Under the pieces are notes generated by a model. That model did no database searches and was not told where the DNA came from. It saw nothing but the letters and a program-made list of their open reading frames with translations. Below, piece by piece: positions 7,771-25,555 of a stretch of DNA of 64,000 bases. Source of the stretch: an uncultured Opitutia bacterium (GTDB taxonomy: Bacteria > Verrucomicrobiota > Verrucomicrobiia > Opitutales > Opitutaceae). Positions within the stretch are counted from its first letter, which is position 1; the number at the start of each line of letters is the position of its first letter. The position numbers were made by a program, and so were the translations under genes. The stretch is from NCBI GenBank assembly GCA_903840415.1, contig CAIMFY010000022.1, forward strand, positions 1-64,000. Reading direction: 5' to 3'.

Positions 7771-7811
7771 ACCTCCACTATGAAAGCAAAAAGCCAAGTG
7801 TCAGGAAATTG

Positions 7812-9029: not shown

Positions 9030-9050
9030 GCAGCTCTGCCCTTCAACGCC
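9001..9050. repeat. 50-bp direct repeat, copy 1 (int/xis junction)
   Basis: An exact 50-bp match to 24891-24940, 15.9 kb away in the same orientation; the match breaks on both sides. This copy spans the end of the excisionase-like gene and the start of the integrase gene. Confidence 0.9.
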
Positions 9051-9313
9051 TGCAAGACCTCCCAGAGGTCATAACGCAGGAATGACTTGCCCTTCTTGCC
9101 CTGGGTGCCTGGCGGGCGGAGGCCTGTGATGAGACCCGTGGCGTCCCAGTTACCAATAGTGCGGCGCTTAACCTCCAAGAGGCTGGCCAGCTCATCAGCT
9201 TTGACGATGACTTGGTTCGGGCCCGTTACTGGAGGAAGCTGTTTCACCAACATATATATCCGATGTGGAAACAAGGCGGAAGACGATTTTGTGATTTTTT
9301 TCGGCCTACCCAC
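9026..9313 (-). CDS. Small MerR/AlpA-like HTH protein, candidate excisionase
   Basis: A 95-residue basic protein. The segment VIVKADELASLLEVKRRTIGNW is an HTH of the MerR/excisionase type, followed by a wing-like stretch (GKSFLRYDLWEVLQAL). Its stop overlaps the integrase start, and such proteins beside integrases commonly direct excision and repress the integrase promoter. It overlaps the upstream gene by 8 bp. An origin as a general transcription factor cannot be excluded. Confidence 0.7.
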   Translation of the reverse strand: MGRPKKITKSSSALFPHRIYMLVKQLPPVTGPNQVIVKADELASLLEVKRRTIGNWDATGLITGLRPPGTQGKKGKSFLRYDLWEVLQALKGRAA

Positions 9314-9539
9314 CGAAATCGATTTTCACGAAGCCAAATTCCTTAGCCACCTTGGGATCATTGGTTTCGAGGAAAACGTAATCGTCCTCCATAGGAGCAC
9401 GCAGGGTTACTCCTGCGGCTTCTAGCTCGGCCAGAAAGCCGATCTGTCCAGTGAGAGCAGAGATCATCTCGGAAATGGTGGTTGAGCCGTCGCAAGTCCA
9501 TTTAGCGCGCCAGCAAAGTTCGTATTTCTTGATTTTCAT
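9306..9539 (-). CDS. Small uncharacterised protein
   Basis: A 77-residue acidic protein beginning MKIKKYELCWRAKWTCDG, with predicted short strands and one helix (STTISEMISALTGQIGFLAELEAAG). No family recognised. Its 3' end overlaps the HTH gene by 8 bp, so it belongs to the leftward integrase operon. The 111 bp upstream (9540-9650) hold no gene I can support. Confidence 0.6.
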   Translation of the reverse strand: MKIKKYELCWRAKWTCDGSTTISEMISALTGQIGFLAELEAAGVTLRAPMEDDYVFLETNDPKVAKEFGFVKIDFGG

Positions 9540-9650
9540 GGTCGAATTGAGATTGCTAGGCAGCTGAGTACCAGGCCCGCAGCGAATGCCCAGGGGCGGT
9601 CCGCCAGGCCTACGAGCAGCAGGCTTGCCCCGCCCACGGCTAGCGTCGTC

Positions 9651-9968
9651 TTAGATAGCTTTTGTGGTCTTGGGAGCACGGCGGGATACCCGATAGAATG
9701 TGCCCTCGGCGATTTGGACAGGCTCAGGGCTTATCACCCATGCTTCCAGCGCGTCGGGGGCATACGCGCGTGCCATGTGCAGCACCTTTTCGGAAATGAA
9801 AAACCCCTGGCGGGCGGGAGTCCGATTCCTCCACCTGCACACAATCGTAATGTTCTCCGACAGGCTATAGAGCAGCAGCTGGTAGTGATACTCCCCGTCC
9901 CAAACATTAAGCGGAAGGGCAAGCCCTGGACTAGGAATCTCTTGGTGTATCGCTGGTGGTGGTGTCAT
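9651..9968 (-). CDS. Small uncharacterised protein
   Basis: A 105-residue protein with a beta-rich centre (YHYQLLLYSLSENITIVCRW) and a C-terminal basic tail. No family recognised. Its start lies inside the 3' end of the upstream HNH-like gene (38-bp overlap), so translation is probably coupled; an inner start is possible. Confidence 0.5.
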   Translation of the reverse strand: MTPPPAIHQEIPSPGLALPLNVWDGEYHYQLLLYSLSENITIVCRWRNRTPARQGFFISEKVLHMARAYAPDALEAWVISPEPVQIAEGTFYRVSRRAPKTTKAI

Positions 9969-10353
9969 TAAAAATTGTCTCGGGACCCGTCAGTTCAGGG
10001 ACGCCGCTGTTGGCAACGGTATCAGGGTTATGCTGCGGGGAATCCGCAGATTTCGCGTTGGTCCCGAGACAAATTTTAGTTTTGGCGTGGATAGCCTCGT
10101 GCAGCGGACGGGCTATACAGAGGCACTGGCAGAGCTCCCGATAAAACGCCGACCGACTGCGTGCGTAGCGGCTCATATTCATGCTCTTTTTCGCTGGGTC
10201 TATATGATGCCAGTGAAGTTGCTCCACGGGCAGTTTTTGCCCTGTGATTTCGCATCCAAGGGCCAGCTTAAGTGCGTCACTGAGTGCCTGATTCTCCCTA
10301 GAGAGTCGCAGCTGGCGGGCAGTCTCACGCCTGATTTTACCCTCTGAGCTCAA
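9931..10353 (-). CDS. HNH-like protein
   Basis: A 140-residue protein. Residues 32-100 contain GCEITGQKL, LHWHHIDPAKKSMNMS and, later, CIARPLHEAIH. This follows the His-His...Asn...His layout of HNH nucleases (WHHIDPxxKxxNxS then xxLHxxIH). The second CxxC zinc pair usual in many HNH proteins is not obvious, so activity is uncertain. The C-terminal 50 residues are low-complexity and polar. It overlaps its neighbours on both sides within the leftward operon. Confidence 0.6.
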   Translation of the reverse strand: MSSEGKIRRETARQLRLSRENQALSDALKLALGCEITGQKLPVEQLHWHHIDPAKKSMNMSRYARSRSAFYRELCQCLCIARPLHEAIHAKTKICLGTNAKSADSPQHNPDTVANSGVPELTGPETIFNDTTTSDTPRDS

Positions 10354-10711
10354 GTTCCACCTCCTTTTCTATCCAGGCCTCGAATGACCTGACGGCTATG
10401 TGCATCTGCCAGTCCATGGCACCGTGCTGGACATAATGTCCGAGAAGAGTGCAGCCTTGCATGCGGCACAGTTGCTCCACCGATAGGCCTACGGGGAGCC
10501 TGGGAGGCCGCCAGTGAGCGCCGATTGGCTCGGTGGTATGTTCCAGCAGGTCGTCCAGAAGGACGCTTCCTGGGGCATCTACAGTCGATTCTATGAACTC
10601 CCTGGCATGCCAGGTATCGAGTAGGCCTAGGGCCAGCAAATGCCAGTTACTGTAACCCTCTGTACAGGGCGTGGTGGCAAAGGTGCTGGGGCGAATGGTA
10701 AGCCTGTTCAT
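10337..10711 (-). CDS. Uncharacterised protein downstream of the PcfJ-like gene
   Basis: A 124-residue protein starting MNRLTIRPSTF. The frame is open further upstream, but that part is the shadow of the PcfJ-like gene; the ATG at 10711 overlaps the PcfJ-like stop as ATGA, which decides the start. The sequence contains SNWHLLALGLLDTWHAREFIES and LLGHYVQHGAMDWQMHIAVRSFEAW, mostly helical. No family recognised. Confidence 0.65.
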   Translation of the reverse strand: MNRLTIRPSTFATTPCTEGYSNWHLLALGLLDTWHAREFIESTVDAPGSVLLDDLLEHTTEPIGAHWRPPRLPVGLSVEQLCRMQGCTLLGHYVQHGAMDWQMHIAVRSFEAWIEKEVELELRG

Positions 10712-11874
10712 ATTGGGAAATCCCACTCTCCTGGCCCTTCGTCCTCGCCCAGCCTTGAGCCAGGCCTGAAGTCTCCGTCTTCGTCCCAGGCTTCGTCGCA
10801 GTCGATGGGCGGGATCTCCATCAACAGCTTTGGCTCTACCAGCGGGAACTCCGAGCGCAGATAGCCCATCACTTCTTCCACGCACTGGTCGCTGGGCTGG
10901 GAATTGCCCCAAGCGCGCAGCTCAGTGGCTTTCCAGAAGCCCTCAGGGTCTCGCTCCAACATCAGGGTAGCCCTACACTTGGGTCGCTTCACCCTGAAAA
11001 AGTAAGCTCGTCCCTCCTGGATCGCCTGCTGGAAACCATAGCAACAATTCTGTTGTTTCCGTCCCTCGCTGAACAGCTCGGCCAGTGTCCTGATGGGCTG
11101 GATGGTCTCAGTGCCTGGTAGGGGTGGAGGTGCAAACGGAATGTGGCTGTGCCTCCGCAAGTGCAGGCGGTGCACGGCGGGGTGCAGCTGCTCATACACC
11201 AGCCCCTTGAACGGCCAGGGCTCCAGCGACTGTTTCCTGTCGGTGCAGTAGAGCCTCCACTCAATTTCGAGCATATCGATGGCATGGGAGACATCCTGCT
11301 CCTGGGCAGGGCTCACGCTCGCACGTTCTACCAGCTGCCAATTGAGGTGCCCCGTGGGGTGATCCAGCGTCTCGATCAGGTCTTTGTTTATTACCTTCAC
11401 GTGATAGAGCCACCGCCTCTTCCGTGGGTCTTGCCAGTGTTGGCCCAACTTGCGGAGAGCATCTTTGCTCCAGGCATCGCCCGTGGCCTTATCCAGGGCA
11501 TTGAGAAACCCATTCTCGGCTGGATAGCCCACGGCCCGCAGGATGTCTCTGTCTCTGCCCTTAAAGGCCTGGCGGATGATGCCTATGAAGGACCGCACGC
11601 TGCTGGGGCATTCCTTGGCCAGCAGTACCAGGAGCGCAGGATTGCGCCGCCAGATTTGCTCGGCTCGGGGCCCGCCGTAGTGGAAAATATAGGGAGAGGC
11701 CCAGCCCAGCACCTGGCTAGCCTCGCGCACCACCCTGGGGATATCGCCACCAGGCTCATTCAGCAGGACCTCCATAAGCAGCCTGGCGGAGTGGCAGAAC
11801 GGCTTCATCCTGGGCGGCCATGCAATGGCACGGGCGGGGTGACCACCTGCGTAGGTAACGGCCCAGTCGCTCAT
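10708..11874 (-). CDS. PcfJ-like protein
   Basis: A 388-residue protein. The C-terminal third carries the signature of the PcfJ family: LFSEGRKQQNCCYGFQQAI, then a beta region (YFFRVKRPKCRATLMLER) and ELRAWGNSQPSDQC, matching the usual 'EGxxxxNCvxxY...aTlxi...qixgxxN' layout. PcfJ-like proteins are found on conjugative plasmids and integrative elements but their biochemical role is not settled. Residues 1-230 are helical and unassigned. It is translationally coupled on both sides (ATGA overlaps at 10708-10711 and 11871-11874). Confidence 0.75.
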   Translation of the reverse strand: MSDWAVTYAGGHPARAIAWPPRMKPFCHSARLLMEVLLNEPGGDIPRVVREASQVLGWASPYIFHYGGPRAEQIWRRNPALLVLLAKECPSSVRSFIGIIRQAFKGRDRDILRAVGYPAENGFLNALDKATGDAWSKDALRKLGQHWQDPRKRRWLYHVKVINKDLIETLDHPTGHLNWQLVERASVSPAQEQDVSHAIDMLEIEWRLYCTDRKQSLEPWPFKGLVYEQLHPAVHRLHLRRHSHIPFAPPPLPGTETIQPIRTLAELFSEGRKQQNCCYGFQQAIQEGRAYFFRVKRPKCRATLMLERDPEGFWKATELRAWGNSQPSDQCVEEVMGYLRSEFPLVEPKLLMEIPPIDCDEAWDEDGDFRPGSRLGEDEGPGEWDFPI

Positions 11875-12101
11875 ACCATGGCCCCCCGTGAGATGACGAT
11901 CCGCCCGATCTCCTGCTGAACCGCAGGTGAGATGGCGTCGCCGATAAACTGGATTGGCTGGCAGACCGTCCCAGCTGCATCCGTGAGCATGAGGCGGGCG
12001 CGAACAACGCCGTCCTCGGAAATCTCTACAAGGTGCCCTCCCGATTGTAGCGGTAGCACGCGGGAGTGAACTCCCGAATTAAAGCGACTGTGATTAGGCA
12101 A
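11871..12101 (-). CDS. Small uncharacterised protein
   Basis: A 76-residue protein, beta-rich (VLPLQSGGHLVEISEDGVV), starting MPNHSRFNSG. No family recognised. Its stop overlaps the PcfJ-like start by 4 bp. The 181 bp upstream are the only real gap in this leftward gene chain. Confidence 0.6.
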   Translation of the reverse strand: MPNHSRFNSGVHSRVLPLQSGGHLVEISEDGVVRARLMLTDAAGTVCQPIQFIGDAISPAVQQEIGRIVISRGAMV

Positions 12102-12117
12102 TTACATCTTTGTTGTC

Positions 12118-12146
12118 CTTTGAACTGAAGATTTTTCAGTTTCAAG
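12118..12146. promoter_or_regulatory. Inverted repeat in the only large gap of the leftward operon
   Basis: AACTGAA (12123-12129), a GATTT loop and TTCAGTT (12135-12141) form a perfect 7-bp inverted repeat that extends imperfectly to 12 bp. It lies about 20-40 bp upstream of the start at 12101. It could be an operator or a weak hairpin terminator for the upstream genes; no long T-run follows on either strand, which favours a binding site or processing hairpin. The rest of 12142-12282 shows nothing I can assign. Confidence 0.4.
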
Positions 12147-12282
12147 AACTACCTATTCACAGGCTATTCCGTCTCCAGCAGAACTAGCTCTCGTGCAGCA
12201 ACTGCTCAGTGAACCTACCAGCTAATAATCTCTCATCACGTCGCCTATGAAGGCAGGGTAGAGGCACCTACACAACAGGCAG

Positions 12283-12561
12283 TCATAGCTCAGTGCTGAA
12301 TCCACCAGACTCTCTAGGCTGGCTATCCACCATAGCCTGCACCACCTGCCCGACTTGCCCAGCCCAGCCGCTAGCCTCCAGCACGCGTACGCACTCATCA
12401 GCGTCCAGGCTACCATTGGCTACGTGCCAGAGCATTGTGTTCCTGCCATCCACTATCTGCTTCATCTGCTCCAGTGACTCAGCAGGATGGGACCAATACA
12501 CCGTGCGGCCCTGGTCTTGCAGGTGACTGAGCAGGGCGCTGACCTCGGCCTGTGAGTTCAC
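12283..12561 (-). CDS. Small uncharacterised protein
   Basis: A 92-residue mostly helical protein (MNSQAEVSALLSHLQDQG...). The region EQMKQIVDGRNTMLWHVANGSLDADECVRVLEASG looks like a small helical fold. No family recognised. Overlaps the upstream gene by 4 bp (ATGA). Confidence 0.6.
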   Translation of the reverse strand: MNSQAEVSALLSHLQDQGRTVYWSHPAESLEQMKQIVDGRNTMLWHVANGSLDADECVRVLEASGWAGQVGQVVQAMVDSQPRESGGFSTEL

Positions 12562-12863
12562 AGGTCGAACGTGAAACCCCTATCTGGGACGGTGCTTCGC
12601 TTGGTCTTTGGCTCACCAGCAATCGCCCTCTCCAACGCGCGAGCTATGGCCAAAGACTGCTGCACGCTGTAGCTGTGCTGGTATGGGGTTGGGTAGAGCC
12701 GCAGACGCATGCCGCTAGAACCCTTAGACCAGGTCGTAACGAATGTAGGTTTTATATCAAAGGCGTGCGATATGCGAGTGCTGCCCTTCGCCCGTAGCTT
12801 AGCCAGGACCTCGGAGCCAACCCGCATTTCCATGTCGGAGCTCTTGTAGAATACGACCCTCAC
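12558..12863 (-). CDS. Small protein, paralogue of the next gene upstream
   Basis: A 101-residue protein beginning MRVVFYKSSDMEMRVGSEVL. The first 25 residues share the pattern MRxVxYKxxxxExxVxxxVxxxLR with the neighbouring protein encoded at 12860-13219, and both contain a W-rich strand near residue 45 followed by an ALxxAxxG helix. The two genes probably arose by tandem duplication. Function unknown. Coupled by ATGA overlaps on both sides. Confidence 0.6.
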   Translation of the reverse strand: MRVVFYKSSDMEMRVGSEVLAKLRAKGSTRISHAFDIKPTFVTTWSKGSSGMRLRLYPTPYQHSYSVQQSLAIARALERAIAGEPKTKRSTVPDRGFTFDL

Positions 12864-13219
12864 ATTAGCTCTTCCACGTCCGCCAATGGCTTCACTGGCC
12901 CTTTGGGCTTGGCTACTGGCTTGGGCTTAGTTGGTCTAGTAGCCTTAATGGGCTTGGTGATGGGCACCCCGCTAAGCGCAGCCGTCACAGCAGCTCTTAG
13001 CACCTTTTTACGGGCCCAGGTAAGCGGCTCGGGAATGGTCGGCGTTATAGGAAACTCCCATGCCCAGCCCTTCCCATCGGATACAAACACCAGGTAATGC
13101 GGCCCTTCTGGCTCTATCATCTCGACCGTGAGCTTGTGCCTGTGACGCCTGAGCCTTTTTATGACCCTGTCTGAGACGGCGACCTCGCTGTGGCGGCCCT
13201 TGTAGAGTACGAGTCTCAC
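12860..13219 (-). CDS. Small protein with Lys/Pro-rich tail, paralogue of its neighbour
   Basis: A 119-residue protein beginning MRLVLYKGRHSEVAVSDRVI. The N-terminal 85 residues resemble the downstream protein (12558-12863). The tail is a Lys-Pro-Thr-rich segment (KATRPTKPKPVAKPK) ending in an acidic ELM, which could bind nucleic acid or be flexible. No family recognised. Confidence 0.6.
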   Translation of the reverse strand: MRLVLYKGRHSEVAVSDRVIKRLRRHRHKLTVEMIEPEGPHYLVFVSDGKGWAWEFPITPTIPEPLTWARKKVLRAAVTAALSGVPITKPIKATRPTKPKPVAKPKGPVKPLADVEELM

Positions 13220-13557
13220 TTGGTGCCGCCTGCCAGTTTAAACACCGTGTTCTCGGCCACTTTATAGCGAGTGGCGATGGTCTTGGCAGTCTCGCCCTCT
13301 TTGCGCGATTTGTAGGCCTGGATGATGGCCTTCTTCTCAGCGTCTGTGAGGTTAGGCCTGCGCTTGCGTGGTGCAGGTGCAGCCTTGGATGGCTTTGCCG
13401 TATCTGGAGCACTGCCCATCGACGCGAGCATCTGGCGAGGGTCAGCATAGCCGAGCTTCTTAGCGGTTTCAGCAATGGTGGACTTAGCCTGCGCCTCGAT
13501 CTGCCCGATTTCTGCCAGCCGCTTCAGCAGCTGAGCCTTCTCTTGTTGGAGGTTCAT
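13216..13557 (-). CDS. Coiled-coil plus HTH DNA-binding protein
   Basis: A 113-residue basic protein. Residues 1-40 form a helix or coiled coil (MNLQQEKAQLLKRLAEIGQI). After a Lys/Pro linker, residues 70-113 form a helix-turn-helix (LTDAEKKAIIQAYKSRKEGE, then IATRYKVAENTVFKL). It resembles small transposase-type or H-NS-like regulators in layout. It may control the leftward operon or bind the repeat array at 13.9 kb. Its start overlaps the stop at 13554 by 4 bp. Confidence 0.65.
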   Translation of the reverse strand: MNLQQEKAQLLKRLAEIGQIEAQAKSTIAETAKKLGYADPRQMLASMGSAPDTAKPSKAAPAPRKRRPNLTDAEKKAIIQAYKSRKEGETAKTIATRYKVAENTVFKLAGGTK

Positions 13558-13838
13558 GGCCAGCGGGTGTAGACCACTGGATGGGCACTTGTCCAGCCTA
13601 AGCCTCTAGATAGCCACCTCACAAAGGAAGCGACCACGCCCAGCCTTGTGGTGAATCTCCTGGGCGAGCCTGGGCTGACCGTGGTTGAGGCTGCCCGCCA
13701 GGCATATTTCGCACAGACGGTGGCTCGCCAGGTAGGCGTGTCGCAGGTCGAGGTAACGCTCACTCTCGGAGGCTCTCTTGGGCGACCTGGAGCGGATACG
13801 GGTGCGCTGTATACCCCAGGGCTGGCCGTCAAAATCAT
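13554..13838 (-). pseudogene. HNH endonuclease gene with displaced reading frame
   Basis: The open frame from the ATG at 13838 to the TGA at 13554 gives an unlikely Arg/Thr/Ser-rich protein. The alternative frame on the same strand, open from 13914 to a TAG at 13606, reads a clear phage-type HNH core: GIQRTRIRSRSPKRA, then LCEIC and QEIHHKAGRGR. That frame has no ATG, GTG or TTG before the core. The end of the first frame (RWLSRGL...SAHP) resembles the usual HNH tail. A lost G in the GGGG run near 13813 and an extra base near 13620 would join start, core and tail into one HNH protein of about 94 residues. Its stop overlaps the next start (ATGA), as expected for an intact gene. Either compensating mutations or base-calling errors fit. 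Confidence 0.55.
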
Positions 13839-13876
13839 GCGGCTGACTTACTGGGCGAAGCCCTGCTTTTCCCCTC

Positions 13877-14026
13877 TGCGAGCATATCCTTTCTAGGGCC
13901 AGCTCGCACCCCCTCTAAACCCTGCTCGCAATCCAGCCTATTATCCTGCTCGCACCCCTTCCTGCGACCTAGCCAACCCAGCCCCAAAATATTCTCGCAG
14001 CACCTATTCCCTTTTCCGATGCGAGC
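13877..14026. promoter_or_regulatory. Iteron-like array of GCTCGCA boxes between divergent gene blocks
   Basis: GCTCGCA occurs at 13902, 13924 and 13948 in direct orientation, with a near copy (TCTCGCA) at 13993 and two inverted copies (TGCGAGC) at 13877 and 14020. The three direct copies are 22 and 24 bp apart, about two helical turns. The array fills the intergenic space between the leftward operon and the rightward gene at 14076. It could be a replication origin for the Rep protein at 15973-17220, a transfer origin, or the operator of the element's main regulator. Confidence 0.6.
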
Positions 14027-14075
14027 AGGGTATCATGGACTGTATAGGTTAATCGCAGCCAACCAAATCAACACC

Positions 14076-15683
14076 ATGAAAACCGCCAACCACTCACTTT
14101 CCTCCGCAGCCTCCCGTAAGCACCTCCGCCCCGACCACAGCGACGGCGGGAGGCTCAAGGACTACACCACCAGCCTCCAGCTCTCCAAGCTCTACCTCAA
14201 GGGCACAGACCTGGACATTGCCAAGGTTAGGGAAGACTTTGGTTTCGCCAATCTGCAGATCGGGACTGGCTCACCTGGTTTTTGTCATGCCTACCCCTCA
14301 GGCCAGCTCATCCCGTACGAAGACTGGCCTAAGTTTCAGAAAGCCATCCTCGACGCCAACCCTGCCTACATGAGCAGGGGCAAGGTGAAGCGGCTGGTGT
14401 ACCCTGACCCCAACAAATCTTGCGAGGTCCTGGCAGTCACCTTGCGCCCTGACCATGTGCTGACCCTTAAGCTGGCTGGTGAGCCTGTCCGCAATGAGGC
14501 CCTGATTCATGAGCTTGGAGTTCTATGTGCCAAGACAATGGAGGCCTGGCACCCCGTGGTCTGCCCAGTAGTTCCTGGCTGGTGCGCCCACATGCTGGAC
14601 TCGATGCCGCACCTGCACATGCTCTACCAGGACATTAAGGAGCAGAAGCTACTCTGGCCGACCCATCTCGAAAAAGGTGGCTACCGTCTCCTGCTTCCTG
14701 ACCAAGTGGCCCCAGTCCGCCTGACACGGGCAGGCCTCTACTCCATGGACCCCTACGCCAAGTCCTGGCTGGCGGCCAACTGCCAGGGTCAGAAGTCAGC
14801 GTCAGGCATGGCGCTGGACTTGGAGCTGGCCTTCAAGGTCGATGACCACGTCCAGGCCTACATCGAGTCTGACCCCAAGCTCAGCGGCGCTTATGGGCGG
14901 GTTCGTGAGGCATACAAGGCCTACTTGGACTACAAGACCGAGCACAGTCCCCGTAACGTGGCAGCGGCCAACGCCAGGCTGAAGAAGGAGCTGGCCGACC
15001 AGAAGGACATCATCGCCAAGCTGGCTGCTCAGGTGGAGGCCATGGCTAATGCCAGGTCAGCCCCTGTCGCCGAGAAACAGCATGGCCAACCCGCGTTGGT
15101 CATCGACGGCGAGAAGGTGGTGGTCTTGAGCCTCTACCGTGGCGCTCCTTATGGCATGCCCAGCGAGGGTGAACAGTGGCTGGCCAAGCCTGGCCTCACT
15201 GCCGTTGTGAAGGCTTCCGACAAGGTGGAGTTCAGCCGAGAGGATGCAGACAAGGTTTTCGCAGCTGCAATGACCCTGGAGCCCCTGGATCCTGCCCCAC
15301 CGCCAGTTGACCCTGAGAAGGAAGCACGCTGGAAGGCCGCCTGCGAACGCTTTAGCGCCCACTATGTAACAGTGGTGGCTGCACCAGCTGCCCCTTCTCC
15401 AGTAAAGCCCGTGGATGAGCGTGAGGCGGTCGGTATGGAGATTGCCCCGCCAAAAGCCACGCCGCAGCCCGTTCCTGCCCCTTCCAAGGCACCTGAGCCC
15501 GAGGTGGTATCCAAGGCCCCAAAATGGCCAGAGGTCAGGAAACCAGCCCAGGAAGCGATTCTAGTCCCCGAGGCGATTATTGAGGTGGTACAGCCAACGC
15601 AGGCCTTTAAGCGAAAAAAGCTGCCCAGTGAAATGACTAAGGAAGAGCAGCTGGAAGACCTGCTCGCCGAACTGTCTATCTAG
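14076..15683 (+). CDS. Large element protein with a weak relaxase-like (HUH) motif
   Basis: A 535-residue protein; the ATG at 14076 is preferred over an upstream start that would run through the repeat array. Residues about 115-185 have a strand, a helix and a strand ending HMLDSMPHLHMLY, with His179-Leu-His181. This resembles motif III of MobV-type relaxases (HxDExxPHxH), but the acidic pair is not conserved. Residues 305-345 are a coiled coil (ARLKKELADQKDIIAKLAAQ). Residues 400-535 are Pro/Ala-rich and end with LEDLLAELSI. Position beside an iteron array supports a DNA-processing role, but no family is certain. It is the only large rightward gene in this half of the element. Confidence 0.7.
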   Translation: MKTANHSLSSAASRKHLRPDHSDGGRLKDYTTSLQLSKLYLKGTDLDIAKVREDFGFANLQIGTGSPGFCHAYPSGQLIPYEDWPKFQKAILDANPAYMSRGKVKRLVYPDPNKSCEVLAVTLRPDHVLTLKLAGEPVRNEALIHELGVLCAKTMEAWHPVVCPVVPGWCAHMLDSMPHLHMLYQDIKEQKLLWPTHLEKGGYRLLLPDQVAPVRLTRAGLYSMDPYAKSWLAANCQGQKSASGMALDLELAFKVDDHVQAYIESDPKLSGAYGRVREAYKAYLDYKTEHSPRNVAAANARLKKELADQKDIIAKLAAQVEAMANARSAPVAEKQHGQPALVIDGEKVVVLSLYRGAPYGMPSEGEQWLAKPGLTAVVKASDKVEFSREDADKVFAAAMTLEPLDPAPPPVDPEKEARWKAACERFSAHYVTVVAAPAAPSPVKPVDEREAVGMEIAPPKATPQPVPAPSKAPEPEVVSKAPKWPEVRKPAQEAILVPEAIIEVVQPTQAFKRKKLPSEMTKEEQLEDLLAELSI

Positions 15684-15919
15684 TCACCTGATTTATTTAG
15701 TAGCGACTCTTTGGGTGGAGCGGTGCCCCCAACCTCAGCTTGGTCAAGTAGGGTTTTGATGTGCTCCCGTGAGATCAGCACACGACGGCCCAGTTTGTAG
15801 TGAGGCAGCCGACGCTCTCTGAGGCGTGCATCGACCCAGCTAAGACTTACCAGCAGCGTCTGGGCCACGTCACGCTTGCTCATCAGGTCAACGGGGAGTG
15901 AGGTGCTGATTTCGTTCAT
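15680..15919 (-). CDS. AlpA-like HTH regulator
   Basis: A 79-residue protein using the ATG at 15919. MSKRDVAQTLLVSLSWVDAR followed by RLPHYKLGRRVLISREHIK is the MerR-like HTH_17/AlpA layout used by excisionase-type and replication-control proteins. It lies 53 bp downstream of the Rep gene in the same orientation, so it may control replication or excision. Its stop overlaps the convergent gene's stop at 15680-15683. Confidence 0.75.
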   Translation of the reverse strand: MNEISTSLPVDLMSKRDVAQTLLVSLSWVDARLRERRLPHYKLGRRVLISREHIKTLLDQAEVGGTAPPKESLLNKSGD

Positions 15920-15972
15920 TCCCCATTCTAGCCATAATTCACAGGAGAGGTAAGAGTTCTTTTGCAGCACCC

Positions 15973-17220
15973 TTAGATTCTTAGCTCAATCACATCTATT
16001 CGCCGCAGCAGGTCCCGAACAAGGCGCGATTCAGCCTTCCAATCAGAGGCAGAAACGTCGGGTGGCCTGGCCCGACTTGGCTGCAGGAGGCTGTTGAGGT
16101 ATGTTTGTTGGACAGGGAATCCCGTGTCACCCAACTCCGCGTAGCTTAGCCAGACCTTCCTGTAGGAGTTTCGAAATGCAGTGGACCTGTCTGGCAGTGG
16201 ATTGAAACGAACCTTTTTCACAACTCGCTCATACAGCCTTCGCTGGACTTCGACCCTCAGTGCCTGCTCGGCCACGTGCTTTGAGGTAGGACTAGGAGGC
16301 AGCACACTGGATAACATAGTCCTAGCTGACCTACTGGATAACCTCTCTATGTTGGGACATAAAGATAAAGATGGAGCCGTCCGTGCAATGGACAGGAAAT
16401 CAAGGCGCTTCGTGGCGCTGTAAATACTGGCAGCCTGAGCTGCGGTAAGCCGTGCGGCTACGCCCAGTGTAGCGAGGTTCCCTTTTTCACTTTTGCTCCA
16501 ACGGAGGCTTAGCGGGTGCTTCAGGAAATAGCCTGTAATTCCACGATGCCAGTCGTGTACCGAACCAAACTTAAACCCAGTTAGCCGAGCGGCACGTCGG
16601 CTGAGCGACTTAACCTTGATGGAGCTGACGTGCTTGGGCACCGCAATGAGCACATGGGCATGGGTGTAGGTGGCGAGGTTTGGCTGGGTCGGATCAACCA
16701 CTAACTCGTACTTGATACTCAGTATCTTAGCCCCACTTTGCTTCCAAGATTCCAACTTGTTTACCTGCTTCAAACGGACCTTCGCTATCGCGATGATCCG
16801 TTTCACCTCTGTGATTGCGACCTTCGCTCGGTCGATTTGAACGTAAGTCCAGTAGAGGCTGTGGGTCGCGCTGCACGAGCCAATTAGGCTCTCCAGTCGC
16901 CTGGTGCGGGCTCGGCGGCGCAACTCCCAGGAGTAAGGTAAAAAGTTACTCCGCGAGACATCCAGTAATAAACTTTCCTTAGCGGCACTGCGTGTCTGTT
17001 CCAACTGGACAGACCAGCGAATTGCATTCGTAACGCCCTGGCTACGTATCAACTGGGCCAAATAGATGGTGGCTGGCAGTGTCACCTTATCCAGGCCATT
17101 GCTTGGCATTCTTCCGATTTCCCTTTCAGACAGATCCCCAGACTGGAAGTACCGAACGAAGTCGCCAGGCGACTCAACGAGGACGCTCCAAACTGACGGC
17201 GAAATGGGGACGGACATCAA
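15973..17220 (-). CDS. Rolling-circle-type replication initiator (HUH Rep)
   Basis: A 415-residue basic protein. Motif II is THAHVLIAV with His187-Ala-His189 after a strand SIKYELVVDP, and motif III is ITGYFLKHP with Tyr231 and Lys234 (YxxK). This spacing and order are those of HUH replication initiators that nick an origin and start rolling-circle replication. A possible motif I strand is YWTYVQI at about 123-129. The C-terminal 170 residues are basic and unassigned. The AlpA-like gene follows it. An autonomous replication phase of the element after excision is inferred. Confidence 0.75.
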   Translation of the reverse strand: MMSVPISPSVWSVLVESPGDFVRYFQSGDLSEREIGRMPSNGLDKVTLPATIYLAQLIRSQGVTNAIRWSVQLEQTRSAAKESLLLDVSRSNFLPYSWELRRRARTRRLESLIGSCSATHSLYWTYVQIDRAKVAITEVKRIIAIAKVRLKQVNKLESWKQSGAKILSIKYELVVDPTQPNLATYTHAHVLIAVPKHVSSIKVKSLSRRAARLTGFKFGSVHDWHRGITGYFLKHPLSLRWSKSEKGNLATLGVAARLTAAQAASIYSATKRLDFLSIARTAPSLSLCPNIERLSSRSARTMLSSVLPPSPTSKHVAEQALRVEVQRRLYERVVKKVRFNPLPDRSTAFRNSYRKVWLSYAELGDTGFPVQQTYLNSLLQPSRARPPDVSASDWKAESRLVRDLLRRIDVIELRI

Positions 17221-17258
17221 GCATTCTAGCGTCCCCTCAGACGTGTGTTAACGTGTTT

Positions 17259-17630
17259 CTACATGTCTTTCTGGACGGCTATAGTGGCTTCGCCACTAAT
17301 ATAGTCATTCGCAGCAGTTTTAGCTACGGCCTGATCTTGAGCCAAACGGGCGCTGATTTGCTTAGCGCGCCACGCAGCGCTCGCCACCTCTTGTTGGCCT
17401 CGCTTGCCAAGCGCAGCCCGTCTCTCCGCTAGGATTCCTGCCTTCGTGAGCAGATCCAGGAGCGGAGCAGAGACGCTCTCATTACGGACGTGCCCAGGAT
17501 ACTTAGCTGCCAAGGCAATCCACACGGGCTGGCGAAGATCACGGACGCTCCAACACGCTTGGTATTTGGTGGGTTGGGCAAGTTCAGGTAGTGCTGCGAT
17601 AGCCTGCAGGTATTTGTCGGTATGGCTCAT
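17259..17630 (-). CDS. Small uncharacterised protein
   Basis: A 123-residue mostly helical protein starting MSHTDKYLQAIAALPEL. Residues 45-110 (KYPGHVRNESVSAPLLDLL, then Ala/Gln-rich helices) look alpha-helical. No family recognised. It is upstream of the Rep gene in the same direction, 38 bp away, and may be cotranscribed. Confidence 0.55.
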   Translation of the reverse strand: MSHTDKYLQAIAALPELAQPTKYQACWSVRDLRQPVWIALAAKYPGHVRNESVSAPLLDLLTKAGILAERRAALGKRGQQEVASAAWRAKQISARLAQDQAVAKTAANDYISGEATIAVQKDM

Positions 17631-17770
17631 GTCAGGGATAGCTTAGCTCAATTCTGCAAGAGCGAATGATGATTCTTCGATATGGCTCATCCTGAATCGC
17701 GCACGGTTTACCTGACGATGCGCCAGTCCATCCTTGTCGCTCACATCTTAAGGACGTAAATGATCCCCGC

Positions 17771-18082
17771 ATGGAGCAGCCACATCCCTCCCCGCATATG
17801 CACCCGCTAAATCAGACGGCCGAATTGCTCCTGACGAAGATCACGGTCAATGGGCAGATTGAGGGCGACATGGCGGTAGTCCGCCTGGCCTTCGCCGCAA
17901 GGTCCGCCAGCTCAGAGATGAGTTCGGGCCAGAAACAGTCACTTCTTCGCTGGGAGGCGGAGCCAAAGTGGCAGAGATTGGCACTGCTGGCGCTTGAGAA
18001 AACGTTGACCCCGCAGTCGCTGTTAATGATGCGCCCAATTGAGGCAGGAGCAGCAATCGCGCACGTATTGGGCGAGGAATAA
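17771..18082 (+). CDS. Small uncharacterised protein
   Basis: A 103-residue helical protein starting MEQPHPSPHMHPLNQ. No family recognised. Its stop codon abuts the stop of the convergent DCL-HNH gene. The region 17631-17770 before it has no other gene and presumably holds its promoter and that of the leftward 17630 gene. Confidence 0.5.
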   Translation: MEQPHPSPHMHPLNQTAELLLTKITVNGQIEGDMAVVRLAFAARSASSEMSSGQKQSLLRWEAEPKWQRLALLALEKTLTPQSLLMMRPIEAGAAIAHVLGEE

Positions 18083-18775
18083 CTACGTTTTCAGCCTAGC
18101 GACCGATAAATTCTCGCCTGGGTGAATCAACCTCAGCTTTGCGTTAGCCAGGTGATATCGTGACCAACTGGCGGCGAGATCACGGTCGGCGAAGGCATTT
18201 TCTACACCAAGATCGGCGACTTCGATGTCCTGCAGGGACAGACCTTCCTGGGTCAGCCAATCAGCCAAGAGACGGTCGAGTGTATCTGGTGCGATATGAT
18301 CAACGTGGCCTGAAAACAGAGGTTTGGAGCAGATTGGGCATTCGGTGCCTCTTAGTCGTTCGAAAACCGCACGCGTCTGATCGGCCACTTCCTTTCTGGC
18401 TGCTAGCGCCACGTCCTTTTTGGCTGTGCTTTTGCCCCCAGCCTGGAGCGGGGTAACCCAGGAGATATCCACCTCGGTGGCGTCGGCGCGTATGAGCCAC
18501 AACCCACGAGTAGCGGTGCCAAATCCAGGCGGAGGGTTCAAGCGAACGACGACTGATACAACCCCTTCCCCTTGCTTCGCCAGCCAGTCATGGTGACGGC
18601 GCAACACTTCGACCAAGAACGCTCTGCTCGGGTCGCCCAATGGGACATCAAACTCGGAGCGAGCAATTATCTCTCGGATGCGCAGCTTGAGCGCGTGCTG
18701 GGTGGGGAAGATTTCTCCAAGAACACCCTCGGTTTTCCACCATTTTGGAGCGTACGGGATCGCAGATAATATCAT
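18083..18775 (-). CDS. DCL-type (DUF3223) domain fused to HNH nuclease
   Basis: A 230-residue protein. Residues 1-100 resemble the DCL/DUF3223 domain first described in a plant plastid protein (ILSAIPYAPKWWKTEG, then LKLRIREII, LGDPSRAFLVEVLRRHHDW). Residues 143-225 are an HNH nuclease: CPIC at 146-149, HVDHIAPDT at 157-165, and a C-terminal NAKLRLIHPGENLS that supplies the final His. The usual second CxxC is not visible. The fusion places a putative nucleic-acid recognition domain ahead of a nuclease. First gene of the cargo block; compositionally more AT-rich than the chromosome. Role in defence is inferred from the neighbourhood. Confidence 0.7.
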   Translation of the reverse strand: MILSAIPYAPKWWKTEGVLGEIFPTQHALKLRIREIIARSEFDVPLGDPSRAFLVEVLRRHHDWLAKQGEGVVSVVVRLNPPPGFGTATRGLWLIRADATEVDISWVTPLQAGGKSTAKKDVALAARKEVADQTRAVFERLRGTECPICSKPLFSGHVDHIAPDTLDRLLADWLTQEGLSLQDIEVADLGVENAFADRDLAASWSRYHLANAKLRLIHPGENLSVARLKT

Positions 18776-18818
18776 TTAGCTCAAAGGCGAGAGGCTCCGT
18801 GGCGTGGAGCCGTTACGG

Positions 18819-19640
18819 TCAATTCTTGTTATAGCCGTTCGGCACCCTCGAACGCAGGACATTCTTCCAGTATCCTTCCCTCTGGATCACGACATTGTCG
18901 TCTGTTTTCATCGTTCGATGTTCGAGGAGAGCGAAGCGAAAATTCAAGCGTGCGTAGTCGATACCGTTCGCAGTGATAAGCTGCGTAAGTTCGTCGTTGT
19001 ATCCGTGCCCAGTCCCAACGTAACAGCCCCATCGCGACCATAGTCCAGTTGTCCCGTAAGCTGACCCGACATATCGCTTCCCGTTGCTGGTATCAGTGAT
19101 CAGATAAACCCCTTTCGCATTTTCGAGAGCTGCCTTCCAGTCGGCACGCTGGATCGCATAAACGGTTTCCAGCATGGCGAAGGAGACATCGATATTGTCG
19201 TAGCCACAAAAAGCTTCACCTGTGTAGCAGCGAGGCAGGATTTCGGAAACCGTGAGCTTTTGATAGCGGTCCTCGAAATTTACGACTCTGGCTCGCCCAG
19301 GACGTTTAAGGCTGAGCTTTAGGCGCCCGATGAGTGGCTGCCCCTCCGTGGTGAGCTCAACCGTGTAGCTGTGGGCTTGGTTGACAGGCCTTCTCGCCAC
19401 AACCCGATAGATGCCCCCAAATAGCCACTGATCCTTCTCGGGCCAGAAATCCATCAGCGCGAAGATGAACTCGCGATTGAAGTCGTCGCGATGAGACCGC
19501 CAGGTATTCCAATCGTCCCATTGTGCGCGGTTCCTAACGAAAACATCCAACGGTTGATTGTGGCCGTTCCAACATGCCAGGTGGAGCTTGTATGCCCCTG
19601 GCATGGCGATGGGTAAGATTGAAGCCAATGAGATTTCCAT
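18819..19640 (-). CDS. GIY-YIG nuclease family protein with large N-terminal domain
   Basis: A 273-residue protein. The C-terminal part from about residue 175 is a GIY-YIG nuclease: GVYLITD (177-183), KRYVGSAYG (188-196), and LWSRWGCYVG with the expected Arg. A later E in VIQREGYWK fits the catalytic Glu. Residues 1-170 are an unassigned domain (PGAYKLHLACWNG, FNREFIFALMDFWPEKDQW, VNFEDRYQKLTV). GIY-YIG enzymes with such N-termini occur near other nucleases on mobile islands; a restriction role is inferred. An independent transcription unit is likely, as 43 bp separate it from the DCL-HNH gene. Confidence 0.8.
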   Translation of the reverse strand: MEISLASILPIAMPGAYKLHLACWNGHNQPLDVFVRNRAQWDDWNTWRSHRDDFNREFIFALMDFWPEKDQWLFGGIYRVVARRPVNQAHSYTVELTTEGQPLIGRLKLSLKRPGRARVVNFEDRYQKLTVSEILPRCYTGEAFCGYDNIDVSFAMLETVYAIQRADWKAALENAKGVYLITDTSNGKRYVGSAYGTTGLWSRWGCYVGTGHGYNDELTQLITANGIDYARLNFRFALLEHRTMKTDDNVVIQREGYWKNVLRSRVPNGYNKN

Positions 19641-19688
19641 GATCTTGGAGCGGCAACGTCAGCGTCAAAGTGGGTATATATAAGTGTC

Positions 19689-21041
19689 CTATTTTCTAGC
19701 GCGCAGATCTAAAAGATACTGCGACGGTTCCACCGTGAGGTGGCCTTTCTCAACATACCCATGCGGATTCGTCAGGACCTCTATCGCTGGGGAGCCGAAC
19801 ACATCTGTGACGAGGTAAATATGGTAGGCCTTTCTGTGCGAACTATGAGAGGCGATTCTCCATTCGTTCGCCGTGAGCTCGACGGAAGAGATCACCTTAC
19901 CAGATGAAGCCTTCACTTCAACGAAGCGTTGTGCTTCGTTCGATTCAAAGGAAAGGATGTCGTATCCAGGTGTGAGTCCCTTCGCTGCCACATGCTCGAT
20001 TTTTGCTGCCAGATCTGAGCGGCCTGCCGCCTGAAGCCTTTTTCGTTCTGCGTCCAAAACGATCAGCTCACCGAAATTTCCGACTTTTTTTGACTCAGTT
20101 GAGCGACGGCCACGCGAGGCTCCCTTGGTCTTCCCTTTTTTCTTTTTCGGGGGACGTATTTCAAAGGAATGAACAGGGACGCCGTCTGGCTCATGTGACA
20201 ATTTCCCAAGCAGTTCATCAACGGTCTGTTTTCCGAACTGTATCTGCCTTACTAGCCCCAGAAAATAGGATGTGCAGAAGTATGCCGCCCGCGAGTTGCG
20301 GAAAGGAGCCGAGTTGAAAGAGGGCTTCCTGTTGAAAACTGCGACGTACCTCAGGAGCACTTCCCGACTAAGGTTTTCCGTGCGTTTGCCGTTGGCGATG
20401 ATGAACCTAATCCCATCGCCCTCGGGTAACACCGAGAATTTTGTGTTTCCCGCCGCAGTCGGATATTCGCCAGGTTGCTCGTTCACAAAGGCGATGATCT
20501 CCTCCGCCGTTATCGCTTTGAGCTTTATGCTGGGCATCGAGCGACGGCGTTGTTTGGTCGAAGCCGCTTGCTTGCTGGTCCCTGGCGTTCTTTTGCCCAA
20601 CCGAACTTTGAAGAACTTCAGCGTGAACGCCTCGCAATCGTCTGACAGAATTGGCCAAGCCTGCGTGTTGACCAGGTGCTTGTCTGAGAGCCCCTTCTTT
20701 CTTAGCGCTTTTTCATAGGCCAATAGTGGTCCTTGAATCGGACAAATTGTATCTAGGTCTACAACGAAATGGGCGTTCCTCCCAGGACGGTGGATTATAC
20801 CACTAGCAGCACGCGCGAGAAACATGCATTCCGTCTCGTAAGAAAAGACCAACAACGTCCCCTTCTTTATCCCAGTGAGGTTCTCCTTCGCCTCCGTCAG
20901 GCCAAACCTGCCCGCTCGCGACTTTACCTGGAGCTTCTGAGTGAAGAACGAAACCACGTCGGCTCTCGTTTCCATCTCGTCGTCGTCTGGGCTTAGCTTA
21001 ATGACTCTCATGGGGGCGATTGCTGGGGTTAGAAGTCGCAT
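19689..21041 (-). CDS. DUF3883-type PD-(D/E)XK nuclease domain protein
   Basis: About 450 residues from the ATG at 21041 (the frame is open to 21119, leaving a second choice). The C-terminal domain (about 320-430) matches the DUF3883 nuclease fold: NFGELIVLDAERKRLQAAG, then GLTPGYDILSFES and RFVEVKAS, with the GYD aspartate and the E-x-K pair as metal ligands, and ELTANEWRIA after it. The middle of the protein (170-290) is unassigned, with a basic linker (PPKKKKGKTKGA). DUF3883 domains are common in restriction and anti-phage proteins. It is divergent from the HNH gene at 21146. Confidence 0.75.
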   Translation of the reverse strand: MRLLTPAIAPMRVIKLSPDDDEMETRADVVSFFTQKLQVKSRAGRFGLTEAKENLTGIKKGTLLVFSYETECMFLARAASGIIHRPGRNAHFVVDLDTICPIQGPLLAYEKALRKKGLSDKHLVNTQAWPILSDDCEAFTLKFFKVRLGKRTPGTSKQAASTKQRRRSMPSIKLKAITAEEIIAFVNEQPGEYPTAAGNTKFSVLPEGDGIRFIIANGKRTENLSREVLLRYVAVFNRKPSFNSAPFRNSRAAYFCTSYFLGLVRQIQFGKQTVDELLGKLSHEPDGVPVHSFEIRPPKKKKGKTKGASRGRRSTESKKVGNFGELIVLDAERKRLQAAGRSDLAAKIEHVAAKGLTPGYDILSFESNEAQRFVEVKASSGKVISSVELTANEWRIASHSSHRKAYHIYLVTDVFGSPAIEVLTNPHGYVEKGHLTVEPSQYLLDLRARK

Positions 21042-21145
21042 GCTGAACTTACGGTGGCATTGGTTCAACCTTTGAACGCGACTGCTGACGGTTTTCGATT
21101 TCCTTCCCTCCGAAAGCACGACACACTTGCAACCTTACTTACTGC

Positions 21146-22132
21146 ATGAGCCGAAGCTTTCGCACCCAAGAAAGTTACACCGCTGAGCGCACGACCCGCG
21201 ACATGCTCGTCGCGTTCTTGCAGGAGCGTGGGTTCACCGAGATTGAGGACGCTCGGAAGTCATTTGGGCAAACCCAGTCGCAGGTGCTGCACGCCACTGA
21301 TGAGTCGGGTCGCCGCGTTTCGATGTGGGTTCGGCTATGTTGGCGACGGGAACACGACGGCGGTGAAATATCCCGCTCGGCGGCCCAACTTTTATCCAGG
21401 ATTAATGGCGATGACTGGGTGGGGACACTGACCGCAATGATAGAGCGAGAGCGTGCCCAAGGAATTTCGCATCTCCTGGTCGTACAGCGGGCAGGCAATG
21501 CCGTCGTCTCGGCCGCATCTATCCCGCTAGATTCGGTTGTGCCCATATGGGTTGCTCAGAGAGATATCAGCAAGGCACTGATAAAGAGCGGTGCCTTAGG
21601 TAGGCGGTCCAAGAATCATGCAATGAATGGATCGAGCCCAACGATCTGGCTTCGGGACGACAAAGCTCCTACTGTGGCCGAAGCACTATGGGGGCATAGG
21701 GGAGTGCGGGACCTGGCTAAATTGGCACCGACGGAAGCGGGTATAGGTGGCTCGGGCAACGACGACTCAATGGACGACCTTCCTGGCGTCAATTACGCCT
21801 CTCTTGGCAGCGATGGAGCAGCGCGGGTGCAAAGGATCAGCTCAGGCGTAAAACGTGACCCTAGGGTTCGCCAAGCGGTCTTCGAGAGGAGCAGGGGCAT
21901 CTGTGAGCGTAACGGATGCGGTGCGCAGCGCGACTTCACTGGCTTCTTCGATGTGCATCACATACTCGGGGCTGAAAAAAGTGACCGCGTTTGGAACTGC
22001 GTCACCCTGTGTCCGAACTGCCATCGAGAGGCCCATGCTTCACCAGAGCGCGACGCCATCAACGCGAGCCTTTTGGAGTTTGCGCGAGGATTTAAACCAA
22101 ACGGGTCTATCGTTTCCACAATGAGCCCTTAG
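21146..22132 (+). CDS. HNH endonuclease
   Basis: A 328-residue protein with a C-terminal zinc-type HNH nuclease: CERNGC, then FDVHHILGAEKSD, a central Asn in RVWNCVTLCPNCHREAH. All four zinc Cys and the HH-N-H residues are present. Residues 1-110 (YTAERTTRDMLVAFLQERGF, then VSMWVRLCWRR) are a beta-alpha domain that could recognise DNA; a further linker region lies between. It starts 105 bp from the divergent DUF3883 nuclease gene and is followed after 6 bp by the DUF2971 gene, so it is probably cotranscribed with that one. Confidence 0.85.
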   Translation: MSRSFRTQESYTAERTTRDMLVAFLQERGFTEIEDARKSFGQTQSQVLHATDESGRRVSMWVRLCWRREHDGGEISRSAAQLLSRINGDDWVGTLTAMIERERAQGISHLLVVQRAGNAVVSAASIPLDSVVPIWVAQRDISKALIKSGALGRRSKNHAMNGSSPTIWLRDDKAPTVAEALWGHRGVRDLAKLAPTEAGIGGSGNDDSMDDLPGVNYASLGSDGAARVQRISSGVKRDPRVRQAVFERSRGICERNGCGAQRDFTGFFDVHHILGAEKSDRVWNCVTLCPNCHREAHASPERDAINASLLEFARGFKPNGSIVSTMSP

Positions 22133-22138
22133 AATCGC

Positions 22139-22936
22139 TTGGAAATGGAAGAGACTTATTATGGCGAAGCCAACCCCGTGTTTTTATACCGCTACCGCCC
22201 ACTTACCGAGGACGGTGGCAGAGACGTTGTTCGGGATGAGCTCGATCTCATTAAGAACGGCTTCATTTGGCTTTCTACCCCCAAGGTCCTAAATGATCCC
22301 TTTGATTGCCGCCCTATCTGTACTGCCGCACAAGAAGGGAGACTCGATCAACTTTTGGCGAAATTTCTTGTCGGCTGCATGTCGGCGATCCCGCCAAACG
22401 CCGTGGATGCGAGCCCAATGTGGAGTTACTACGCAGACAGTCACCGAGGAATCTGCATTGAATTTCCATTCGACAGGGCGCGTGCAGCGATGGGATTGCC
22501 TATAGAGCGTGTCCGCTACTCAAACACGCGACTCGACATACGCAGTCTCGATCACACGAGGATGCGGATCACTTCCCCAAGGCGTTTAGGAGTTGTGGTC
22601 GCCCAAGAAGAAGTGAGTGACCCCATCAACAATATAGAAATTCTGGAACTTTCGCGAAAATCAGAAGCTTGGCGGCATGAACAGGAATGGCGTTTTATAT
22701 GGTCCCAAAACCACGAGAGACCACCTGAGGCAATCGCCAGAGAGATAGCGGAACATGGAGCAATGGCGGGCCACAAAGCTTTCGTTTCCCGCCCGAGTCG
22801 CGTTATCTTCGGTGCCAATATGGATGCTGCAAGAAAGTGCTGTTTAGCCAACCTTTGTAGGGATATCGGTGTTTCTACTGTTGAAGCATATCGCTCCGAG
22901 GCCGAATACCGAATCGAATACCGCCCGAAGGAATGA
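22139..22936 (+). CDS. DUF2971 family protein
   Basis: A 265-residue protein with the family signature: YRYRPL (17-22), LNDPFDC (51-57), MWSYYADSHRGICIEF (94-109) and a later W-x-x-E-Q-E-W-R segment. DUF2971 proteins are found often in defence islands and beside nucleases; their activity is not established. It follows the HNH gene after 6 bp, and the base composition here is clearly lower in GC than the surrounding chromosome, pointing to recent transfer. Confidence 0.8.
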   Translation: MEMEETYYGEANPVFLYRYRPLTEDGGRDVVRDELDLIKNGFIWLSTPKVLNDPFDCRPICTAAQEGRLDQLLAKFLVGCMSAIPPNAVDASPMWSYYADSHRGICIEFPFDRARAAMGLPIERVRYSNTRLDIRSLDHTRMRITSPRRLGVVVAQEEVSDPINNIEILELSRKSEAWRHEQEWRFIWSQNHERPPEAIAREIAEHGAMAGHKAFVSRPSRVIFGANMDAARKCCLANLCRDIGVSTVEAYRSEAEYRIEYRPKE

Positions 22937-23001
22937 GATGAAATCTGTCCTGAAATGCGAAGTAAGCGCTCTAACCTGCTCGACGGAGTTACGCGCCAGA
23001 T

Positions 23002-23898: not shown

Positions 23899-23900
23899 CG

Positions 23901-24863: not shown

Positions 24864-24890
24864 TCCTCCACGGCCCGCCAGATATCCTTT

Positions 24891-25550: not shown

Positions 25551-25555
25551 TAAAC

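Follow-up and report, generated by a model that had tools for sequence, protein, structure and literature searches.

Ten streptococcal integrative and mobilizable elements (IMEs), grouped as IME_Class_10, encode a tyrosine integrase, a MobV relaxase and a second protein of the MobT/Rep_trans kind (PF02486, rolling-circle replication (RCR) type; PMC5357655). IMEs with RCR proteins have been reviewed, and these proteins are thought to serve maintenance of the element after excision (PMC5704250). MobM of plasmid pMV158, a MOBV relaxase, cuts DNA through a histidine, and the origins of transfer (oriTs) of the MOBV1 group are described as carrying three inverted repeats, whose predicted hairpins exclude one another (PMC5863519). 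Here, a 17.9-kb element (7719-25632), bounded by 52-bp repeats in a tRNA-Asp gene, is described in 64,000 nt of DNA from an uncultured Opitutia bacterium of the family Opitutaceae (contig CAIMFY010000022.1, positions 1 to 64,000; assembly GCA_903840415.1). This whole stretch is called the window below, and all positions refer to it unless a locus is named. With moderate confidence, the element is interpreted as an IME of an Opitutaceae bacterium that combines a relaxase of 554 amino acids (aa), a possible rolling-circle Rep protein of 415 aa, and defence cargo.

The insertion of a tyrosine-integrase element into the 3' part of tRNA-Asp, with a duplication of 52 bp, is firmly established. The two copies of the repeat (7719-7770 and 25556-25607) were identical at 50 of 52 positions (96%), and direct reading of the sequences placed both differences on the two sides of one T-stem pair. 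A tRNA-Asp gene without an element was found in a genome of the same genus (G401), where the core of the attachment (att) site occurred as a single copy in a 20-kb stretch. This gene was identical to the distal copy of the window at 52 of 52 positions; relative to the intact gene of the window its 5' part was identical, and it differed at the same two bases. Because of these identities, the distal copy is regarded as the displaced original end of the gene, and the end of the intact gene as brought in by the element. A blastn comparison of the window with the 20-kb stretch (E 1e-8) returned nothing beyond the tRNA regions with up to about 60 bp of flank. Since the wider flanks differ, the two genomes are not a clean pair of states before and after insertion. 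Short scattered pieces with low summed E-values from a tblastx comparison were taken as noise. The integrase adjoining the distal site matched phrog_1 (Table 1), and in Pfam it gave E-values of 0.22 and 0.23 only. The att repeats, the tRNA-Asp gene of G401 and the integrase match support well what the original prediction had stated about a tyrosine integrase and its use of tRNA-Asp. An integrase encoded by the element itself and att sites in one defined target gene, both expected of an IME, are thus present.

The relaxase-like family of the 554-aa protein had not been recognized in the original prediction. A family profile was built from a homologue in genome G128 (E 2.6e-8) and one in G274. 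Of 252 host-family genomes searched with it, 11 gave a match, the own genome included. Twelve full-length members were aligned, 11 from the host family and one from the order; the fragments in L008 and L009 and a second copy in L061 were left out. An N-terminal histidine, H198, R234 and D267 were aligned in all 12. Motif III reads H-x6-H-x-H in the window (H191, H198 and H200 in the numbering of the 554-aa protein). Its third position is H in eight members, D in three and Q in one, and the spacing H-x6-H-x-[HDQ] was found in 11 of the 12, with a longer spacer in L061. The H-x6-H spacing was taken from an earlier alignment (14 of 15 rows, with some fragments of a single gene among them); in the alignment of 12 rows the first triad histidine of the window is misplaced. 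A pattern scan for further members returned five loci, none with a family match, and the hits of the 554-aa protein in L006 and L007 were set aside as weak or interrupted.

Profiles were compared with hhalign. The family matched five MobV relaxases of the phylum with an E-value of 3.8e-4 (36%). For comparison, MobV matched canonical relaxases at 0.001 (21%); in the controls, the family matched Rep_1 at 0.24 and integrase at 0.63. The MobV profile comprised five of six loci, since L124 lacked a central frame that contains HxH; for the relaxase profile six of ten loci were used, the four weakest being left out. One member, in L058, linked the family to curated models. In the genome search it scored 24.5 bits by itself and 24.9 bits with its neighbours, and was called over the Pfam Relaxase cut-off of 24.6; it was the one of eight members scanned that matched NCBIfam MobV (0.0036, 17.4 bits against a cut-off of 100). 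Both its Relaxase and its MobV match fall at motif III. The own genome gave no match to NCBIfam MobV. The family resembles MOBV relaxases such as MobM of pMV158 in the histidine spacing of motif III and in an invariant N-terminal histidine, which may correspond to the histidine of MobM. In the window, inverted repeats lie upstream of the gene, as in the oriTs of MOBV1 (PMC5863519). The family differs from MOBV relaxases in the score of L058 with NCBIfam MobV, which falls far short of the cut-off, in the lack of any such match for the window protein, and in the third histidine, which is replaced by Asp or Gln in four of 12 members.

Several results count against a relaxase. The 554-aa protein itself matched no relaxase model in Pfam, PHROGs or NCBIfam. 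A Pfam scan of ten members found Relaxase only in L058 (1e-4, 23.0 bits) and L062 (0.13), and the family matched canonical relaxases at an E-value of 0.023 (2%), or 0.12 without L131. The AlphaFold model of the protein had a mean predicted local distance difference test score (pLDDT) of 37. Searches of plasmids, phages and viral contigs yielded no relative of the family. Judged by its sequence, the family probably has the function of a MobV-type relaxase and is probably related to this type; by the curated cut-off it is not a member of MOBV. On balance the 554-aa protein is likely to be a relaxase, belonging to a new family of MOB type with kinship to MobV, and it would nick an oriT located most likely in the repeat cluster upstream of its gene.

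The neighbourhood of the family was also compared. Among ten ORFs (open reading frames) next to family members, six were phrog_1 integrases (L043, L056, L057, L058, L062 and L063), one was ParB-like (L061), one primase/helicase-like (L059), and two had no match. A tRNA gene lay within 3.3 kb of five members (G128, with tRNA-Asp; L057, L058, L062 and L063); the tRNA at L043 was doubtful, and none was present in the stretch examined of L056, L059-L061 and L064. The set of Rep, AlpA-like and integrase genes, which the original prediction had suggested looking for at other tRNA-Asp loci, was not found there; the combination that recurred instead was an integrase with a relaxase-like gene near tRNA genes. 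An exact repeat of the tRNA end was found in one of six relatives tested, which counts against the IME interpretation; in the other five, the stretch may end before the far att site, or its copy may not be exact. The one relative is L063, with a 26-bp att site 6983 nt away (a span of 7.0 kb); its integrase stands at the far end, the same arrangement that the window shows. Two unusual arrangements were recorded within the family. In L064 (1193-3085) a serine recombinase and a relaxase-like domain of the new family share a single open frame, either as a fusion or as two abutting genes, and in L061 (8716-11081) two relaxase-like ORFs of the family stand in tandem beside the ParB-like gene.

The relaxase-like gene, at its likelier start, follows directly downstream of the repeat cluster; the Rep-like gene has its 3' end about 1.9 kb from the cluster. 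This likelier start is the ATG at 14076, as judged from the alignment, and the array is then wholly upstream. Four copies of [GT]CTCGCA are on the plus strand and two on the minus strand. Five copies of one 7-mer in 150 bp were reached in two of 100 Markov simulations, which is above chance, though not by much. For a region of 520 bp, mononucleotide shuffles reached the observed count in 4, 0 and 1 of 200 cases for 7-, 8- and 9-mers. Over the whole window the repeat word was not in excess (28 copies against 22.4 expected). All 200 shuffles folded less well than the strand of the cluster (z -3.4). The original prediction had called the array iteron-like. Its repeats are indeed present, but their orientation is mixed and they are not beside the 415-aa gene, so that an iteron origin, with direct repeats beside a rep gene, is not shown. 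A candidate oriT is the preferred reading over iterons, and an operator is possible. Against an oriT stands the finding that the array word was not shared upstream of the relaxase-like genes of ten relatives. Other upstream repeats of the relatives were four copies of a different 7-mer in L058 (4/200 shuffles), a run of A in L005 (9/200), and the rest at no fewer than 21/200.

The second nicking protein was examined in the same way. Its ORF is intact and open over 415 aa, with HAHVL from residue 187 and YFLK from residue 231, so that the HUH and YxxK residues named in the original prediction (187-189 and 231-234) are confirmed. When the protein was shuffled 20,000 times, an HUH motif followed by YxxK at a distance of 30-70 aa arose in 11 cases; among 505 ORFs of at least 250 aa from the other loci examined, five had such a pair. 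Three of these five were Rep_1 proteins (two distinct ones, L073 being the same as L096), and the other two were one unrelated gene in overlapping loci. This low chance rate of the Rep signature speaks against a plain genomic island of integrase and defence cargo, in which the HUH-like motifs of both proteins would be accidental or fossil and neither replication nor mobilization would occur. So does the relaxase-like family, in which the His, Arg and Asp positions are conserved throughout the 12 divergent members. Such an island would fit the missing family match and the failed structure prediction of both proteins; it is considered improbable.

Rep_1 (PF01446) was found above its cut-off in four of 240 genomes of the phylum. 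From the four PF01446 proteins, L073 and L074 were chosen by eye as profile seeds, and L071 and L072 were left out. Three relatives were added to give a Rep_1-type profile of five sequences (in the search of the order, four of 223 genomes matched, one of them a seed). With this profile the 415-aa protein ranked first of 2001 sequences (7.9 against 7.0 bits). In hhalign it matched the profile at an E-value of 0.014 (probability 3%), and its score of 26.9 was above those of 300 of 300 shuffles (top 26.3) and of 117 of 117 scored ORFs (top 25.7; 150 ORFs had been drawn, of which 117 gave scores). The control profiles gave E-values of 0.55 (MobV), 0.37 (relaxase), 0.85 (family of the 554-aa protein) and 0.15 (integrases). 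In a multiple alignment with five distant Rep_1 relatives, an FLP stretch, HxH and YxxK were in register. HUH proteins are expected to show the order strand, helix, strand, strand, helix. The AlphaFold model of the 415-aa protein, made without relatives, has strand, helix, strand, strand (with HAH) and helix (with Y231); the model is too poor for this to count.

The points against a Rep protein are numerous. Matches below an E-value of 0.07 were absent from Pfam, PHROGs and NCBIfam, and no relative was found in 387 genomes of the phylum, in viral contigs or in genome contigs, the last scan being one that finds close relatives only. With the profile of the two seeds, the protein was second of 2001, one shuffle scoring better, and second among other ORFs, one unrelated ORF scoring better; moreover, the choice of seeds by eye for likeness to the 415-aa protein favours the match. 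The probability given by hhalign is low, and the margins in the five-sequence ranking and in the hhalign shuffle control are small. Rep_1 and relaxase profiles also match each other, at E-values of 0.0069-0.015. The value of 0.014 may therefore show kinship at the level of HUH proteins only, and for the same reason the confidence in the IME interpretation was lowered by a very small step. The structure model had a mean pLDDT of 39, with values under 35 around Y231, and a Foldseek search with it gave a best E-value of 0.088 and no HUH protein among the best 50 rows. Among published nick-site words, the pC194/pUB110-type TCTTGATA did not occur in the element; of other such words, one CTTGATA, one TACTACG[AC] and one CTCT.ATA were present. 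The search with a Rep profile proposed as a check gave no PF01446 match for the protein at E-values up to 5, and the own genome had none at E 1. Against plasmids and phages the protein returned nothing at E 1, and its best PDB match had an E-value of 0.12. The sole hits outside the own genome in the 387 genomes, in L002 and L003, were short stretches interrupted by stops and were rejected.

With these reservations, it is moderately likely that the 415-aa protein acts as a Rep of the Y1 HUH class, which would nick an origin via Tyr231 and drive rolling-circle replication of the excised circle. The replication after excision that the original prediction had put forward is plausible from the weak Rep_1-type similarity, but in view of the missing close homologue it stays unproven. 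Alternatively, one HUH-like protein alone would be active: the relaxase-like protein would serve in transfer and in replication alike, a double role reported for MobT of ICEBs1 and Tn916 (PMC5704250), and the 415-aa protein would be decayed or an unrelated accessory. In keeping with this explanation, the relaxase-like family recurs, and none of the other genomes searched yielded the 415-aa protein. The explanation is nevertheless rated unlikely: the 415-aa ORF is intact, ends beside the AlpA-like gene, and holds HxH and YxxK at Rep-like spacing.

The loci of the Rep_1-type proteins were inspected for comparison with the IME interpretation. Loci L114-L118 contain the five profile members, and in each locus an integrase match adjoins or overlaps a tRNA gene; in three of these loci, 29-46 nt of tRNA sequence are directly repeated at the ends of 5.1-14.3 kb, and in two no such repeat was found. 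Coordinates were recorded for L114 (6812-17337), L115 (76-14419) and L118 (6061-11212), in other Verrucomicrobiota. Two further PF01446 loci, L119 (6.2 kb) and L120, had neither integrase nor tRNA, which counts against the IME interpretation. L115 and L117 look viral because they encode a single-stranded DNA-binding protein (SSB; 1.6e-26 and 1.3e-34) and a protein resembling a packaging ATPase and akin to phrog_2666 (7e-14 and 1e-16), L115 also a possible capsid protein (E 0.012). L114-L118 may be tailless proviruses. Verrucomicrobia are described as hosts of Vinavirales prophages, and for Paremcibacter two prophages of this kind with Rep_1 proteins are in the literature (PMC9502842).

Another explanation would make the element a remnant or satellite of a tailless provirus with a Rep protein of the kind found in Rep_1 elements, packaged by a helper phage and not transferred by conjugation. 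The five Rep_1-type relatives at integrase-tRNA loci, the viral genes of L115 and L117 and the published prophages agree with this, as does the match of the helix-turn-helix (HTH) protein at 9026-9313 to the terminase small subunit phrog_57. That match covers the HTH alone; the other virus-type matches of element proteins were coiled-coil or HTH matches above 0.003. SSB, ATPase and capsid proteins were not matched by any of 18 element proteins (eight scanned by Pfam only), and the relaxase-like family was absent from all seven Rep_1 loci scanned. A proviral origin is therefore held to be very improbable. Compared with the Rep_1 (PF01446) initiators at integrase-tRNA loci of Verrucomicrobiota (L073, L074 and L097-L099), the window protein has the same HxH/YxxK register and the same integrase-tRNA context, but it has no Pfam Rep_1 match and its similarity is marginal; on the side of those loci, two look viral and none has a relaxase-like gene.

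A lack of conjugation machinery had been claimed for the element. Type IV secretion proteins had no Pfam match among the 18 element proteins, a scan that did not take in every small ORF. The claim is not quite accurate, as the element encodes a relaxase-like protein. No coupling protein was recognized among the proteins scanned, a further point to be set against mobilization. Of the two classes originally offered, satellite or mobilizable element, the second is favoured because of the relaxase-like family.

The IME interpretation leads to the following scheme. The tyrosine integrase would insert the element into the 3' part of tRNA-Asp, and the AlpA-like protein, probably produced from the transcript of the Rep-like gene, would act in excision or regulation. 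The 415-aa Rep protein would nick an origin through Tyr231, from which the excised circle would replicate by the rolling-circle mechanism. The 554-aa relaxase would nick the oriT, and the circle would be carried through the conjugation pore of a helper. In its most extended form, which we propose tentatively and somewhat short of conviction, the 554-aa protein founds a new relaxase family, with a MobV-like triad and probably a His nucleophile, that mobilizes tRNA-targeting elements in Opitutaceae; here it would be paired with a divergent Y1 HUH Rep, and Verrucomicrobiota would have an IME that carries defence genes and uses one nicking enzyme for transfer and another for maintenance by rolling-circle replication. 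The streptococcal IME_Class_10 elements share with this one a tyrosine integrase, a relaxase or, here, relaxase-like protein with a motif III of MobV type, and a second HUH or HUH-like protein of rolling-circle type (PMC5357655). They differ from it in that both putative nicking proteins here are outside named families, the Rep protein resembles Rep_1 and not Rep_trans, the host belongs to Verrucomicrobiota, and the target is tRNA-Asp. The plan of the element is thus already known; the host group and the two nicking proteins are not named in the portions of those IME papers available to us.

Table 1. Features of the element in tRNA-Asp, with positions in the window.
Feature	Position	Strand	Basis
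Distal att site, displaced 3' part of tRNA-Asp	7719-7770	-	Match to 25556-25607 and to G401
Tyrosine integrase	7812-9029	-	Adjoins distal att; phrog_1, E 1.6e-10
HTH protein, excisionase-like at best	9026-9313	-	Overlaps integrase start; weak mixed matches
PcfJ-like protein	10708-11874	-	PF14284, E 2.4e-4, 21.4 bits; cut-off of 25 not reached
HTH (HTH_23-like) protein	13216-13557	-	Divergent from relaxase-like gene; HTH_23, 6e-4, 20 bits; cut-off of 24.6 not reached
Repeat cluster, candidate oriT or operator	13877-14026		Five GCTCGCA and one TCTCGCA in mixed orientation; hairpin-forming
Relaxase-like HUH protein, 554 aa	14019-15683	+	Family profile; motif; MobV/Relaxase similarity of the family
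AlpA-like excisionase/regulator	15680-15970	-	Directly downstream of Rep-like gene
Rep-like HUH protein, 415 aa	15973-17220	-	His187/His189, Tyr231/Lys234; weak Rep_1-type profile similarity
Small ORF upstream of Rep-like gene	17259-17630	-	No significant family in Pfam, PHROGs or NCBIfam
Defence-like cargo	18083-24863		UzuA-like (1.2e-45), HamC-like DUF3223, NOV_C, HNH (type IV restriction-like), PDC-S31-like, type II methyltransferase/restriction pair
Intact tRNA-Asp, proximal att	25556-25632	-	ARAGORN and Rfam

The right part of the element, 7 kb in length, is defence cargo. Among the regulators, the AlpA-like protein was identified as originally predicted, with a match to TIGR01764 'excise' above the cut-off (29.6 bits against 28.8) and one to the excisionase phrog_1840 (E 5.8e-9); Pfam HTH_17 reached 25.8 bits, just under the cut-off of 27. 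The HTH protein at the integrase start matched phrog_57 (3.7e-4), BldC (0.0011), the excisionase phrog_7735 (0.0025) and MerR (0.029). Matches to the PcfJ-like protein were found in ten of 150 genomes of the family, the own genome counted, and in L035 a neighbouring gene (9931-10353 in the window) was conserved together with it. An inverted repeat is present in the left backbone at 9969-9987 and 10060-10078 (arms of 19 nt, 95% complementary, 72 nt between them). Just beyond the distal att site, and outside the element, a protein of the Fic family is encoded at 5478-7043 (PF02661, 2e-14).

The literature searched contained little on conjugative gene flow in Verrucomicrobiota, no IME study of the group among the titles listed, and nothing linking Opitut- taxa with relaxases; three papers on rolling-circle replication and integrases in Verrucomicrobiota dealt, by their titles, with other matters. 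Mobility typing that relies on models would overlook a relaxase-like family for the most part invisible to Pfam, PHROGs and NCBIfam, and islands like 7719-25632 may for this reason be filed as immobile. The element offers a testable route by which defence genes may move in this lineage of the Opitutaceae.

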